From positions 61,931 through 125,930 of the forward strand of contig CACCZR010000003.1 of the NCBI GenBank assembly GCA_902550555.1: DNA of 64,000 nt, in the 5' to 3' direction. Below are positions 56,572 through 64,000 of this stretch, one piece after another. The stretch's first letter is position 1, and the number at the start of each line of letters is the position of its first letter. Made by a program: the position numbers and the translations under genes. The stretch is from an uncultured SAR116 cluster alpha proteobacterium. GTDB lineage: Bacteria > Pseudomonadota > Alphaproteobacteria > Puniceispirillales > Marisalimonadaceae. The notes under the pieces were generated by a model that was not told where the DNA came from, did no database searches, and saw nothing but the letters and a program-made list of their open reading frames with translations.

Positions 56572-58743
56572 ATGGAAGATTTAGAAATTAAAAGCTCTTT
56601 AAAAGTTTCAAAATTGTTAAGTCAATTTTTGGAAAATGAAGTTCTTAATAAGTTGGATTTAAATGTTGATAAGTTTTGGGAAGATTTTGATCATGTAATT
56701 AAAGTTTTTGCTCCTAAAAATGAAGATCTCTTAAATAAGAGAGAAGATATCAAAAAGAAAATTGATGCATACTATATTTCAAATAAAGATAAACAATATA
56801 ATCATGACGAATACATCAATTTTCTAAAGGAAATTGATTATATTGTTCCTGAAGGGGCAGACTTCATTATCAATACAGAAAATGTAGATATGGAAATTGC
56901 AAATATCCCTGGTCCACAACTTGTAGTTCCTGTAACAAATGCAAGATATTCTATAAACGCAGCTAATGCTAGATGGGGTAGTTTATATGACGCACTGTAT
57001 GGTACAGATGTCATATCTGAAGAAAATGGTTGTGAAAAAGGAAATAGTTATAATGCAAAAAGAGGTGAAAAGGTTATAGCTTTTGCTAAAAATTTTTTAG
57101 ATAAGAATTTTCCTCTCTCGAATGGATCTCACGCAGAAGTCATAAATTATTCTATAATAGATAATGAGTTAACAATTAAACTGTCAGATAATACTGAAAC
57201 AAATTTGAGAGAAAATAATAAATACATTGGATTCAATAAAATTAATGAAGATATTTATGAAGTTCTTTTAAAAAATAATAATCTTCATGTTATCTTATCA
57301 TTCAACAAAAACTCCTTGATTGGGTCAAGTGACAAGTCTTCTCTTCAAGATGTTATTCTTGAATCTGCAATAACAACTATTCAAGATTGTGAGGATTCTG
57401 TCGCCACTGTAGATGCTGAAGACAAAGTTTTAGCTTATAAAAATTGGCTTGGTTTAATGAAAGGGGATCTTGAGGATACCTTTGAAAAAAATGGAAAAAA
57501 AATTGTAAGAAAACTTAACAAAACAAAAGTTTTCAAAACAAAAAATGGTGAATTACATTTACCGGGATTGTCCTTAATGCTTATTAGAAATGTTGGGCAT
57601 TTAATGACAAATCCGGCTATTATTTATTCTGAAAATAAAGAAGTACCCGAAGGAATTATGGATACAGTTATTACTACCATGATATCTATGTTTGATCTTA
57701 AAAATGGAAAGAATAACTCTAAAACTGGTTCTGTATATATAGTAAAACCAAAAATGCACGGCCCTGAAGAAGTGGCTTTTACAATCGAATTATTTGCTGC
57801 AGTTGAAAATATGCTTGGATTGCCAAATAATACTATAAAAATTGGTATTATGGATGAAGAAAGAAGAACTACAATAAATTTAAAAGAATGTATTAGGCAT
57901 GCTAAAGAACGTCTAGTATTTATCAATACTGGATTTCTAGATAGAACTGGAGATGAAATACATACCGCAATGGAAGGTGGACCCATAATACCCAAAGCAG
58001 AAATAAAAGGTGCTGAATGGATAAACGCTTACGAAAAAAATAATGTTTTAGTAGGACTAAAATGCGGTCTGTCTGGTAAAGCACAAATCGGAAAAGGTAT
58101 GTGGGCAATGCCAGATCTAATGAAAGATATGTATGAACAAAAAATACAACATCCTAAAAGCGGTGCAAATACAGCATGGGTTCCAAGCCCAACAGCTGCT
58201 ACTATACATGCACTTCACTATCATGAAGTTGACGTATTTGAGGAACAGAGAAACATAAGTAATCAAAATAACAACTCTGACCTACAGTCAAAAATTCTTA
58301 CTCCTCCAATTGCATTTGGTTATAACTGGTCTCCAGAAGATATAGAGAGGGAAATAGACAATAACTCTCAAGGGATCCTAGGTTACGTTGTAAGATGGGT
58401 TGATCAAGGTGTTGGTTGTTCAAAAGTTCCTGATATTAATAATGTAGGTTTGATGGAAGACAGAGCAACATGCAGAATTTCTAGCCAACATTTAGCTAAC
58501 TGGTTACATCATAATATTATTACCAAAGATCAAGCAATTACATCATTAAAAAAAATGGCTAAAATTGTTGATAAACAAAATGAAAATGATGCTAATTATA
58601 AAAAAATGTCTGAGAATTATGATGGATCTCTTGCTTTCCAAGCAGCTTTAGACCTTGTTTTAAAAGGTACTACAAGTCCCTCAGGTTATACTGAGCCTGT
58701 ACTTCACGAACGAAGGCTAGAGTTAAAGAGTTTAAGCCGTTAG
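56572..58743 (+). CDS. glcB: Malate synthase G
   Basis: [65 protein letters not shown]. Confidence 0.97.
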
Positions 58744-59808
58744 TTTAATTGCATTTCTTAAATGGTCTATTGGTATTAATCTACCGGACCTATTTATATG
58801 CCAAAAGGTCCAGCCATTACAAGCAGGTAGACCTTGTAATGCCGCGCCTACGGAATGAATAGAGCCTTTATTATCTCTAGAAATTAAACTTCCATCGGCT
58901 CTCACTTTTGCAGTCCATCTTTTTCTCAAATCGGTTAAAATCTCACCTGGAATTATAAGACCTTTTTCTATGAGTGATCCAAATGGAATTCTTTTCACCT
59001 TCTCTTTTGGAGGCATTTGAATCAATTCAACATGTTCAATTTTTTTTGTGTTATTTATTCGATATTGAGCAGAGGTTACATAATTTAAATCTTGCTCAAT
59101 ACCTATGAAATTTCTATTCAACTTCTTCGCTACGGCTCCAGTCGTTCCTGTCCCAAAAAAGGGGTCAAGTATAGTATCATTAACATTTGTGCTAGCTAGC
59201 AAAATTCTACTTATTAAACTTTCAGGTTTTTGAGTAGGATGTATCTTTACACCATCCTCATCTTTTAATCTCTCTTTACCATTACATATAGGAAGATTCC
59301 AATCAGATCTCATTTGTAAATCACCATTAAGAGATTTCATGGATTCATAGTTAAAAGTATATTTTGAGTTTTTATTTTTTGAAACCCAAATGATAGTTTC
59401 GTGAGCATTTGTAAATCTTTTTCCAAGAAAATTAGGCATTGGATTACTCTTAATCCAAACAACATCATTCAAAATCCAAAATCCTAAATTTTGAAGCATA
59501 AAACCAATTCTAAAAATATTATGGTAAGAACCTATAACCCACATAGAACCATTTGATTTTAGAATTTTTCTACAGCTCTTTAACCAACTCATAGTAAAAT
59601 CATCATAATGTTCAAAACTATCGAAATTATCCCAATTTTCTTTCACTCCATCAACTTTAGTTTGATCTGGGCGCAACAAAGTTTTAGATAATTGTAAATT
59701 ATATGGAGGATCTGCAAAAATGAGATCAACAGAATTTTCAGGAATTTTTTTTAATATATCTAAAGAGTTTCCATGAATAATTTTATTTTTTATTTTTTCA
59801 ATATTCAT
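58732..59808 (-). CDS. ccrM: Adenine-N6 DNA methyltransferase, CcrM-like (predicted GANTC)
   Basis: [55 protein letters not shown], CcrM-type C-terminal region with [22 protein letters not shown]. Confidence 0.93.
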
Positions 59809-59926: not shown

Positions 59927-60601
59927 CTAAATACAAAATATTGTACTTATAGGCTTAAAATTTCTTCTATGAATTTTGGTTATTCCATGTTTAATTATCA
60001 TATCTCTATGCTCTTTTGTTCCATAACCCACGTTATTTTTAAAATTATAATATGGATATAATAAGTGCTGTTGATACATTATGGTATCTCGAGTCTCTTT
60101 TGCAATAATACTAGCAAGAGCTATAGACATTAGTTTTGAATCTCCTTTAACAATGCAATAAATTTTAATTCTATTTCTAATTAGAGCAAATAATTTTTCA
60201 AACATATCAAAACTTGGAATCCTATTTCCGTCTATAAATATGTCAAAAAATAAATTTTTATTAGTATAAAAACTAAAATTTTGAACCATTAAAATAACTG
60301 CCCTGAGTGCTGCTAGATCGTTACTGGCATTTATTCCCAAATTTTCAATTTCATTTACTGTAGAACTTCCTATAGCACTTCTAGAAAAAGTTGACGAAGA
60401 TACAAATATTTCTCTTCTATGCTTTTTACTCATTTTTTTTGAATCATTGATTTTTGGTAAATTCATAAATTTTGAAGGATAAATATATGATGCGCAGCTC
60501 AAAACTGGGCCTGCCCAACAACCCCTTCCTACTTCATCAACTCCTATCATTACTCTTTCTGAATTAAAAAGATATTTTTTTTCTTCAAAAAGATTTAGCA
60601 C
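59927..60601 (-). CDS. rnhB: Ribonuclease HII
   Basis: MIGVDEVGRGCWAGPVLSCA, SKKMSKKHRRE, SIIAKETRD. Confidence 0.95.
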   Translation of the reverse strand: MLNLFEEKKYLFNSERVMIGVDEVGRGCWAGPVLSCASYIYPSKFMNLPKINDSKKMSKKHRREIFVSSSTFSRSAIGSSTVNEIENLGINASNDLAALRAVILMVQNFSFYTNKNLFFDIFIDGNRIPSFDMFEKLFALIRNRIKIYCIVKGDSKLMSIALASIIAKETRDTIMYQQHLLYPYYNFKNNVGYGTKEHRDMIIKHGITKIHRRNFKPISTIFCI

Positions 60602-60613
60602 TATTTAAACTTT

Positions 60614-61138
60614 TTATGCTTCATTCAATCTAGGCATGATTTCAACAAAGTTACATGGCTTGTGTCTAATATCTAGTTGAAATTTTAATATTTCTTCCCA
60701 AGCATCTTTACAGGCAGAAGGGGAGCCAGGTAAACAAAAAATATATTTTCCATTCTTTGTTCCAGCAATAGCTCTACTTTGTATTGTTGAAGTACCAATT
60801 TTTTTATAAGAAAGAAATCTAAATAATTCACCAAAGCCATCAATCTTTTTATCGAAAAAAGTTTCTAGGACATCTACTGTTATATCTCGACCTGTTAGTC
60901 CAGTTCCACCTGAAGTAATGATAACATCTAACTTTTTATTATTAATCCACTTATTCAATATTAATAAAAGTTCTGAGGATTCGTCTTTAACAATATCTCT
61001 TAGTATACAAGTATGGCCATAATCTTCTATTAGACTTTGTAAAATTTTTCCTGATTTGTCATTATCAAAATTTCGAGTATCAGATATTGTTAGAATAGCT
61101 ATATTGATCCCAAAAAATTCTATTGTTTCATCTATCAT
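60614..61138 (-). CDS. moaB: Molybdenum cofactor biosynthesis protein MoaB
   Basis: IAILTISDTRNFDNDKSGKIL, DVIITSGGTGLTGRDITVDVLE, FCLPGSPSACKDAWE; internal Met start preferred. Confidence 0.93.
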   Translation of the reverse strand: MIDETIEFFGINIAILTISDTRNFDNDKSGKILQSLIEDYGHTCILRDIVKDESSELLLILNKWINNKKLDVIITSGGTGLTGRDITVDVLETFFDKKIDGFGELFRFLSYKKIGTSTIQSRAIAGTKNGKYIFCLPGSPSACKDAWEEILKFQLDIRHKPCNFVEIMPRLNEA

Positions 61139-62885
61139 TTTTATATTCGTATTTTGGAATACTTCCACTAGCCAATTTAAATAATAAATTAGGTTTTTCG
61201 TTTAGTCTTATTTTATATATCCATAGATTTGTTAGTACTAATTTAATATAATTTCTAGTTTGTCTAGCAGGCAAAGTTTCAATCATAAAAATAGGATCAA
61301 TCTCTGTTGTATGAAAATTTTTAGACCACTTACTAAAATTTCCTGGTCCAGCATTATAAGATGCTAACATTTTACTTACATCTTTTTTAATAATGTCTAA
61401 CTCAAAAAGAAATTGTATATACTTAGAAGCAACAAATAAATTTTTTTCTTCATCAAATAATATTTCTTTTTTACGATAAGCTCTATCTTTCATTATAAAT
61501 GAAGCTGTTGATGGTAAAACTTGCATTAAGCCTAAGGCATTTGCATAACTCTTAGCTCTAGGATTAAAACCAGATTCTTGCCTTGATATTGAGAATAAAA
61601 GTGATTTATCTTTAATCGGTAAAGTTGAAAAATCCCAATCAGGAACTGGATATAAACCACCTAGAAGAATTTTATTATAATCGTTCCTTAAAATGGCGGA
61701 CAATCTAAAAGCAAATCCAGGCATATTATTATTAGATGCAAAAGATATAATTTGTGGATATTCTTTTTCATTGAAGTTGAAAATTATTTTTCTAAATTCT
61801 CTAGATGCTTTATGATATTCAGAGATTTGTAACAATCCTAGAATTCTTCTTCCAGCTTGGAGTGATTTCAATTTTAAAATAAATTGTTTTGATACATTTT
61901 GAAGCTTAAAGTCATAATTATCTTGATAACCTAATGATGCTTTACTTAGCGTAGAATAAAAAGTCCGATCATACTTAATTGCTCTATATAAATATCTATT
62001 AATACTTTTATATTCACCCATATGATAAGCAACTTTTGCTGACCAAAAACTTCCTGCAGATAAGATACTTTCTGGACCATCTTTTAAGTCTGATAGATTA
62101 TTAAAAAACCATTTAGATGATTTGAGATTTCCTAATCTCCATGAAGCCAAACCTCCAGACCAAAAAGCTAATGCATTTTTGTGCCCAGATAAACTTATTG
62201 AAATTCTTGCTTGTCTTAAACTTTTTTCATCTTCTTTAAAAATAAAATATGCATGTGCAAACTCAGCTCTCAATTGAGCTAATTCTTGATTTGTTAGTTT
62301 TTGTTTTGTTTTCTTTGATGACAATAAATTTTCAACATAATCTAAATTTTTTCTTCTAATTGCTCTTCTGACTTTTATTGAAATTTTAAAGGAATCTCTT
62401 TTATATTTTGATTGTGCTAGAGGAAATATAGGTTTGATTAAATCTTTAGATATATTTCCATAACCATTTAGAAAATCACCACTTGGCTTTTTAGGTGATT
62501 TTGATTTAACTGGTTTTCTTCTTAACGCAAGTCTATAAATTTTATAAGCATCAGGATGGTCATGATACTCATTTAACCATTGCTTTAGTTCATTATAGGA
62601 ACTTCTCCACCCAGTTGGATGTAAATATTTATCAGCATTTAAAGTTCCTATAAGAATTTTATTCTCAATTTGATTTTTTAATTTTTCTATTTTTTTCCAT
62701 ATTTTAGAATTTTTACTTTTTATTTGCTTAGATTGTAATTTAAACACTTCTTTGTAAATTTTTGCATCAGAGGCACTAAATATACTTATGTCTGAATTAT
62801 TTCCTGCTATTGAATAACTTGATTTTAAAAAAGTTCCTAATAAGAGAATTAAAAACCATTTTGAATATTTGTAATTAAAATTCAT
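61128..62885 (-). CDS. slt: Soluble lytic murein transglycosylase
   Basis: SRQESGFNPRAKSYANALGLMQVLPSTASFIM catalytic Glu region, ASYNAGPGNFSKW. Confidence 0.92.
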   Translation of the reverse strand: MNFNYKYSKWFLILLLGTFLKSSYSIAGNNSDISIFSASDAKIYKEVFKLQSKQIKSKNSKIWKKIEKLKNQIENKILIGTLNADKYLHPTGWRSSYNELKQWLNEYHDHPDAYKIYRLALRRKPVKSKSPKKPSGDFLNGYGNISKDLIKPIFPLAQSKYKRDSFKISIKVRRAIRRKNLDYVENLLSSKKTKQKLTNQELAQLRAEFAHAYFIFKEDEKSLRQARISISLSGHKNALAFWSGGLASWRLGNLKSSKWFFNNLSDLKDGPESILSAGSFWSAKVAYHMGEYKSINRYLYRAIKYDRTFYSTLSKASLGYQDNYDFKLQNVSKQFILKLKSLQAGRRILGLLQISEYHKASREFRKIIFNFNEKEYPQIISFASNNNMPGFAFRLSAILRNDYNKILLGGLYPVPDWDFSTLPIKDKSLLFSISRQESGFNPRAKSYANALGLMQVLPSTASFIMKDRAYRKKEILFDEEKNLFVASKYIQFLFELDIIKKDVSKMLASYNAGPGNFSKWSKNFHTTEIDPIFMIETLPARQTRNYIKLVLTNLWIYKIRLNEKPNLLFKLASGSIPKYEYKNDR

Positions 62886-63492
62886 TTATTTTTACCTTTA
62901 ATAATTTTAACTGTGACCAAGCATCTCTTTTTAAACTTTGGTTTTTATTTATATTTGAAACTGAAGGAATTTTAATGTAGTCAAAATTTGAATCAAAATT
63001 CTCTATTTTACAAATCTTACTTAAATCATCAGAGTACATATCAATAAAAATCTTAGGGTTTAGAATCTCAAAATATAGTTTTAATATTTCTTTTACTTTA
63101 TTTAAGTAACTTTCTGTCATTTTTTCAAAATCGATATTAATTACACAAAAATCATCAATGTCATGTCCAATCGATGCAAACATTTTTTCTAGTAATTCTG
63201 GTTGATTTTTTTTGAATTGATCAAAATTTTTAAAATTGTTCTCTTCAGAGAGTAATAAAAGAAACTTTGAAGACATGTTATAATTTCTTAATATCAATTG
63301 AAAATTATTTTCAATTTGCCACTCTTTAACATAATTATCTAAATCTTGAATACTTTTATGGTTTTTCTCTATCTTGCTTTGTTTTATTTTTAAATCATAT
63401 TCTTGAGAAAAAGATATATTTAATCCTAAATCTACTAAAAAATTACTATAATTTTTTAGCACTAATAATTCATTTTCATTTTTTTGTTTCAT
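62875..63492 (-). CDS. Degenerate family-4 uracil-DNA-glycosylase-like protein, predicted catalytically inactive
   Basis: N-terminal LKNYSNFLVDLGLN, central ELLEKMFASIGHDIDDFCVIN and C-terminal KRDAWSQLKLLKVKI resemble family-4 UDG segments; Fe-S cysteines, GEAPG and HPxYLL-type motifs absent. Confidence 0.55.
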   Translation of the reverse strand: MKQKNENELLVLKNYSNFLVDLGLNISFSQEYDLKIKQSKIEKNHKSIQDLDNYVKEWQIENNFQLILRNYNMSSKFLLLLSEENNFKNFDQFKKNQPELLEKMFASIGHDIDDFCVINIDFEKMTESYLNKVKEILKLYFEILNPKIFIDMYSDDLSKICKIENFDSNFDYIKIPSVSNINKNQSLKRDAWSQLKLLKVKINEF

Positions 63493-63537: not shown

Positions 63538-64000
63538 ATGTTTCCAATGAAAATTTTTAAGTTATTTTTTTTATTTACAATAATTACATTTTTCTTAAGC
63601 TGTACAAATAATTTAGAACAAAATAAAATAAGATTTAAACTTGAACCAAGTTCTAATTTTGGTCGTTTTTTATCTGCAAGATATTCCTTAAGAGTAGGCG
63701 ACAATAATGTCGCATCGGAATTAATATCAAAATCCAAAAGTTTGCATCTAGACTTAACTTTATCCGAATTAAATTTTAATAATTACTTAATTAATGGTGA
63801 TTTTAATAAAGCAAAAGAATTTAAAATAATAGCTCCAAATGGGTTAGAAAAATTACCAATGTATGATCTACCTGATTTTATAATAAATTTAAAAAATGGA
63901 AAATTTTCAAATTTAGATAATTTTAATTCTACAATAGAGCAATTGCCAGGATTTAAATTAATTTTCGAAAAAATTAAATATACAAATTTAGTTGAAGCTA
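63538..64000 (+). CDS. Putative lipoprotein, possibly TPR-type (N-terminal part; gene runs off the window end)
   Basis: MFPMKIFKLFFLFTIITFFLSCTNNLEQNKIRFKLEPSSNFGRFLSARYSLRVGDNN; lipobox-like FLSC; open to the window end. Confidence 0.7.
   Translation, partial: MFPMKIFKLFFLFTIITFFLSCTNNLEQNKIRFKLEPSSNFGRFLSARYSLRVGDNNVASELISKSKSLHLDLTLSELNFNNYLINGDFNKAKEFKIIAPNGLEKLPMYDLPDFIINLKNGKFSNLDNFNSTIEQLPGFKLIFEKIKYTNLVEA

Follow-up and report, generated by a model that had tools for sequence, protein, structure and literature searches.

What is the 205-residue protein encoded next to slt in a 64,000-nucleotide stretch (the window) of contig CACCZR010000003.1, from an uncultured alphaproteobacterium of the SAR116 cluster, and why has its gene been kept? 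An earlier note, made from the letters of the window, had read it as a family-4 uracil-DNA glycosylase (UDG4) with its catalytic and Fe-S motifs removed, and had taken the uninterrupted frame as a sign of retained non-catalytic function rather than of fresh decay. The analysis presented here establishes well that the open reading frame (ORF) is a dead orthologue of UDG4 by descent, slt-linked and vertically inherited. Residues of its active site are gone, the gene is nevertheless retained under protein-level constraint, and similar losses recur in other alphaproteobacterial families.

Descent of the ORF from family-4 glycosylases

The gene order UDG4-slt-moaB-rnhB-ccrM is kept across SAR116, as seen by locus comparison, which makes the ORF the positional orthologue of UDG4; the neighbours that the earlier note had named are all present in the window (Table 1). 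On its own the window protein has no match in Pfam or NCBIfam, and a profile search of PDB sequences returned only one weak lipoprotein match. The link to known families is provided by its orthologues, which we label by genus, g1 being the window's own genus and g2, g3 and g4 sister genera in the same SAR116 family. Two g4 copies match TIGR00758 (UDG_fam4; E 2.1e-7 and 3.2e-8) and PF03167 (E 0.0019 and 4.5e-5), in each case below the curated cut-off. A profile built from g1 copies only matched intact alphaproteobacterial UDG4 with a probability of 92.6 (E 4.5e-7), the blocks being aligned in order, and the g2/g3 copies with a probability of 96.6; two neighbour-gene controls reached 0.2. One further weak match (L014) was dropped as a homologue, being a hydantoinase-like ORF.

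The AlphaFold2 model of the window protein is of moderate confidence (mean pLDDT, the predicted local distance difference score, 69; predicted template-modelling score, pTM, 0.62). Its best Foldseek match in the PDB is the UDG4 structure 4zby (E 7.6e-4, prob 1.00, TM about 0.47), followed by UdgX (6iob) and then by TDG. The model points, with moderate confidence, to the UDG alpha/beta fold. Among viral models Foldseek found UDGs of phages and UDG-like domains fused to DNA polymerases; these agree with this fold, and none of them is a closer relative. Synteny, profile comparison and structural match thus bear out the proposed descent, and the blocks do lie in UDG4 order. The segments that the earlier note had picked out are present, at residues 12-25, 78-91, 99-119, 177-185 and 188-202.

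Compared with the characterized enzymes (UDGa; Thermus thermophilus 1ui0, S. tokodaii 4zby), the window protein shares the fold, the order of elements and the C-terminal KxxxWxDL helix, and it is orthologous by locus to intact alphaproteobacterial members. Unlike UDGa, it has no GEAPG, no histidine of HPAYLL and no Fe-S ligands, the last being absent from the intact alphaproteobacterial members as well.

Loss of active-site residues

In T. thermophilus (Tth) UDGa the pocket is formed by E41, G42, E47, F54, N80 and H155, and N89 is also important (PMC5387724). The H155S substitution lowers k2/Km from 2.4e5 to 94 (PMC5387724). At the place of motif A the window protein has lost the equivalents of E41, A/G42, P43, G44, E47 and F54. 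Neither GE(A/G)PG with E41 in motif A nor HP with H155 in motif B is found, in agreement with the loss of catalytic motifs noted before. The Asn equivalent to N80, the residue in contact with uracil, is kept (N119), and Asn is aligned in 9 of 9 g1 copies, in a region where the alignment is weaker. Judged by these residues, the window protein would have lost uracil excision. UdgX is a structural relative of family 4 and gave the second-best structural match; unlike UdgX, the window protein has neither GEQPG at motif A nor the KRRIH R-loop.

Catalytic loss is not peculiar to the window gene: it extends through the window's SAR116 family and recurs across Alphaproteobacteria. The whole family of the window lacks E41 and H155. 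In g1, E41, A42, E47, F54 and H155 are all gone. In g2/g3, E41 is lost, H155 is replaced by Ser, Asn or Gly, and N80 is often lost, while E47, F54 and the PPGNR loop are kept; this loop is additionally lost in g4 and g1. The g2/g3 loci (L075-L084, L127) carry a fixed replacement motif A, DGxPDxxEDKxG, and an invariant PPGNR, so that their pocket is possibly retooled rather than dead. A separate, partial loss is seen in genus g12 of another SAR116 family, f4; this genus carries the family-1 glycosylase UNG. Here N80 is gone, F54 is Leu, H155 is kept, and motif A reads GEVPG or GDVPG, half of the copies having Asp in place of E41 (L093, L103-L105, L108, L109, L111, L113-L115). In the SAR116 genera where no UNG was found (families f2 and f3; f4 genera g7, g13, g14, g17, g18 and g19), the pocket positions are intact in every tabulated copy. 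Family f16 has extremely degenerate slt-linked UDG4 remnants (L202, L206, L207), which are identified chiefly by where they lie, along with a weak profile match.

The Fe-S ligands require a different interpretation. The window protein has two cysteines, C116 and C161, and therefore lacks the four ligands of a [4Fe-4S] cluster. However, all 28 motif-complete slt-linked alphaproteobacterial UDG4s sampled (L135-L164) also lack CxxC and read WRPPGNR instead of KCRPPGNR, and intact SAR116 copies (e.g., L042) likewise have no Fe-S cysteine motifs. Because intact proteins give the same result, the ligand test is not diagnostic for the window gene, and Fe-S loss was ruled out as its hallmark. The cysteine count in the earlier note was correct, but the missing ligands are an older, general trait of alphaproteobacterial UDG4 rather than part of this gene's own story.

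Retention and selection

The frame runs without interruption over 205 codons on the minus strand, from 63492 to 62878, with the stop at 62875. The ORF was found in 9 of 13 own-genus genomes, the window included, and is open in all nine; the other eight copies are 41-69% identical to that of the window. Of the four genomes in which it was not found, three also have no slt match; the fourth (L176) has an slt locus that reaches the edge of the sequence, so these absences are probably due to incomplete assemblies.

Among the own-genus copies the ratio of nonsynonymous to synonymous substitution rates (dN/dS) is 0.23-0.38 (bootstrap probability of a ratio of 1 or more, at most 0.001), compared with 0.11-0.16 for slt. 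The gene is thus constrained, but less so than its neighbours. As many as 94 of the 205 codons (~46%) are one change from a stop. Simulated neutral change left the frame open in ~0.05% of trials at 0.2 substitutions/site and in 0 of 2000 trials at 0.4 substitutions/site. The absence of frameshifts from close relatives and the dN/dS values support the proposal of retention over fresh decay, and the collected orthologues show that motif loss extends through the family.

Other uracil-DNA glycosylases and the pattern across the class

The earlier note had asked whether another intact UDG exists in the genome. Two others are encoded in the window genome: UNG (L002), which is intact, and UDGb (L001), which is family-5-like. 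Like UDG4, UDGb belongs to the UDG superfamily; its different locus and its motif A, GLAPGxxGANRTG, set it apart, and UDGb is not the origin of the ORF.

We searched for UDG4 in 142 alphaproteobacterial genomes, and for UNG in the same 142 and then in 385. UDG4 loci were read and their residues tabulated, and a copy was scored as dead when at least two of E41 (Glu or Gln counted), N80 and H155 were lost. UDG-like matches on fused UdgX-type proteins (G132, G264, G442, G448, G401) were excluded as non-orthologous. UDG4 is present in nearly every alphaproteobacterium sampled, whereas UNG is rare across the 142 genomes; where UNG occurs, UDG4 is usually disabled. Of the 29 genomes with a UNG match, 19 have lost at least two of the three residues, as against 5 of the 129 that have no such match (Fisher p 4e-13, uncorrected for phylogeny). 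Since some families are over-represented in the UNG-positive set, and two of its matches (G370, G401) score below the curated cut-off, the count by family is fairer: 10 of 15 with a UNG match versus 5 of ~127 without (p 1e-8, families treated as independent). A poorly resolved rpoB tree of 30 genomes implies at least 7 changes between the dead and the intact state (parsimony, rows scored). The association of UNG with dead UDG4 is strong descriptively. Of the UNG-negative genomes in which UDG4 is damaged, those inspected have a family-5-like UDG gene elsewhere.

Elements kept by the damaged copies

We tallied erosion over 21 damaged copies from 19 genera, at those positions where intact UDG4 shows strong conservation; one of the copies (G146) fails just one of the three scored residues. 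Two residues of KRxAW in the C-terminal helix, its Trp (100%) and its Lys (90%), are among the best kept, together with the Gly of GxDE (90%), a Leu of LLDKM (90%) and two prolines. That Gly, which lies in the N-terminal helix, is found in 95% of intact copies, compared with 90% of dead ones. The worst kept are Gly44 (5%), E41 (10%) and A42 (10%) of motif A and the Arg of motif B (10%); N80 (24%), N89 (24%) and H155 (29%) are also poorly kept. Solved UDG4 structures begin after the N-terminal helix, leaving helix and linker outside their coverage, which makes this the stronger candidate for an element of interaction.

Features of the locus

Table 1. Coordinates in the window of the UDG4 orthologue, its sequence elements and the genes of the conserved cluster.
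Feature	Position	Strand	Basis or remark
Dead slt-linked UDG4 orthologue, coding sequence, 205 aa, stop included	62875..63492	-	Uninterrupted frame, open own-genus orthologues, synteny, UDG4 homology
N-terminal helix motif, residues 12-25, LKNYSNFLVDLGLN	63418..63459	-	Counterpart of LLxWQxxxGADE in intact alphaproteobacterial UDG4
Place of motif A (GEAPGxxED), residues 78-91, LLLLSEENNFKNFD	63220..63261	-	Sequence alignment
LLxKMFxSIG helix and next strand, residues 99-119	63136..63198	-	Alignment
Place of motif B (HPAYLLR), residues 176-185, PSVSNINKNQ	62938..62967	-	Catalytic His155 lost
C-terminal helix, residues 187-202, LKRDAWSQLKLLKVKI	62887..62934	-	Of all elements, the most conserved among dead copies
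slt (soluble lytic transglycosylase), next gene downstream	61128..62885	-	
moaB-like gene of the conserved cluster	60614..61168	-	
rnhB (ribonuclease HII) of the conserved cluster	59927..60601	-	
ccrM-like DNA methyltransferase of the conserved cluster	58732..59808	-	

The start of slt overlaps the end of the UDG-like gene by 11 nucleotides (62875-62885), which suggests translational coupling. On the other side, a putative lipoprotein (63538-64000) is transcribed divergently, starting just upstream of the UDG-like gene; a putative lipoprotein is found at this site in most of the window's SAR116 family.

Discussion

The explanation that we consider probable is that the slt-linked UDG4 of the window is dead, that uracil is excised by UNG or UDGb encoded elsewhere, and that the protein has been kept for a non-catalytic role. 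Excision in the window's SAR116 family would most likely be carried out by UNG, together with UDGb. Once another glycosylase covers excision, the active site of UDG4 could erode while the protein stays for its second role; it would most likely serve as a DNA-binding scaffold or as the partner of another protein. The parts proposed to serve this role are two helices, LLxWxxxxGxDE at the N terminus and KRxAW at the C terminus, and the folded core.

Several observations weigh against this explanation. Constraint on the gene is relaxed, its dN/dS being 2-3 times that of slt. The Trp of KRxAW is also present in Tth UDGa, so retention of the C-terminal helix may reflect only the packing of the fold. 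Phylogenetic pairing on the rpoB tree yields only 4 supported pairs, too few to show the link with UNG (median p 1), and the UNG-positive families f26, f74, f86 and f109, as well as f4 genera g9, g10 and g16, retain an intact UDG4. One copy (G225) retains H155 and is scored as dead only for its E41D and N80S changes. Finally, neither a partner nor a phenotype for a second role of UDG4 was found.

Much the same data can be read as the slow decay of a redundant gene, with UNG present, no function left and the gene on its way out. The gene evolves faster than its neighbours, the g4 and g1 forms are shorter and more eroded than those of g2/g3, and dead copies are mostly in UNG-positive genomes. 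We nevertheless regard decay as quite unlikely: nine own-genus frames are open despite the many codons one change from a stop, dN/dS is below 1, the dead form is found in four genera, and many other families still have open forms like it. The overlap with slt raises the alternative that the frame is held open only for slt translation, via the overlapping stop and start, the protein itself being inert. Most dead copies do lie directly upstream of slt. However, a mere leader would not be expected to show the observed dN/dS or to keep the same few residues across dead lineages, and some damaged copies have just moaB as a neighbour (G169) or no slt match in the sequence around them (G188, G477, G181, G226, G228). 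We regard this explanation, too, as quite unlikely.

A third alternative is a pocket changed to a different chemistry or substrate, at least in the sister genera g2/g3, which it fits best. There the replacement motif A is fixed, PPGNR, E47 and F54 are invariant, and H155 has become Ser, Asn or Gly; such strict conservation of an altered pocket is how a new activity would be expected to look. In g1 and g4, on the other hand, the pocket is dismantled with no other conserved set in its place, and in other families the losses vary from case to case. Leaving-group and pocket residues are among those lost. As an explanation of the whole pattern, retooling is unlikely.

Enzymes that have lost catalysis but still serve a role are a known kind of protein. 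For a non-catalytic role of a UDG-fold protein the closest precedent is D4 of vaccinia virus, which interacts with A20 in DNA replication independently of glycosylase activity (PMC1936997). The analogy is partial: D4 is viral, keeps its glycosylase activity and has a known partner, A20, whereas the window protein has lost the catalytic residues. In Caulobacter, transposon sequencing (TnSeq) showed lower fitness for one of its UDGs, CCNA_01618, during recovery from phosphate starvation (PMC13250506); this may or may not be the slt-linked gene. In the literature searched, mostly without subscription journals, we found no earlier report of an inactive bacterial UDG4, nor of one that has been recurrently inactivated but retained.

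The losses also bear on annotation. Two copies in which catalytic residues have been lost (L075:4000-4779 and L165:2035-2970) score 132 and 142 bits against TIGR00758, where the curated cut-off is 125.3; by that measure they would be labelled as active uracil-DNA glycosylases.

More tentatively, alphaproteobacterial UDG4 may in general have a widely conserved non-catalytic function; where another glycosylase is present, the active site would be lost and the protein would stay, yielding many natural separation-of-function variants. The pattern suggested is one of displacement, UDG4 being disabled in most cases where UNG occurs. One odd ORF thereby leads to a general claim that is open to testing on the UDG4 of Alphaproteobacteria. 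If the claim is true, a glycosylase found in nearly every sampled member of the class has a second job, and its dead orthologues point to the residues that are needed, and those that are dispensable, for that job.
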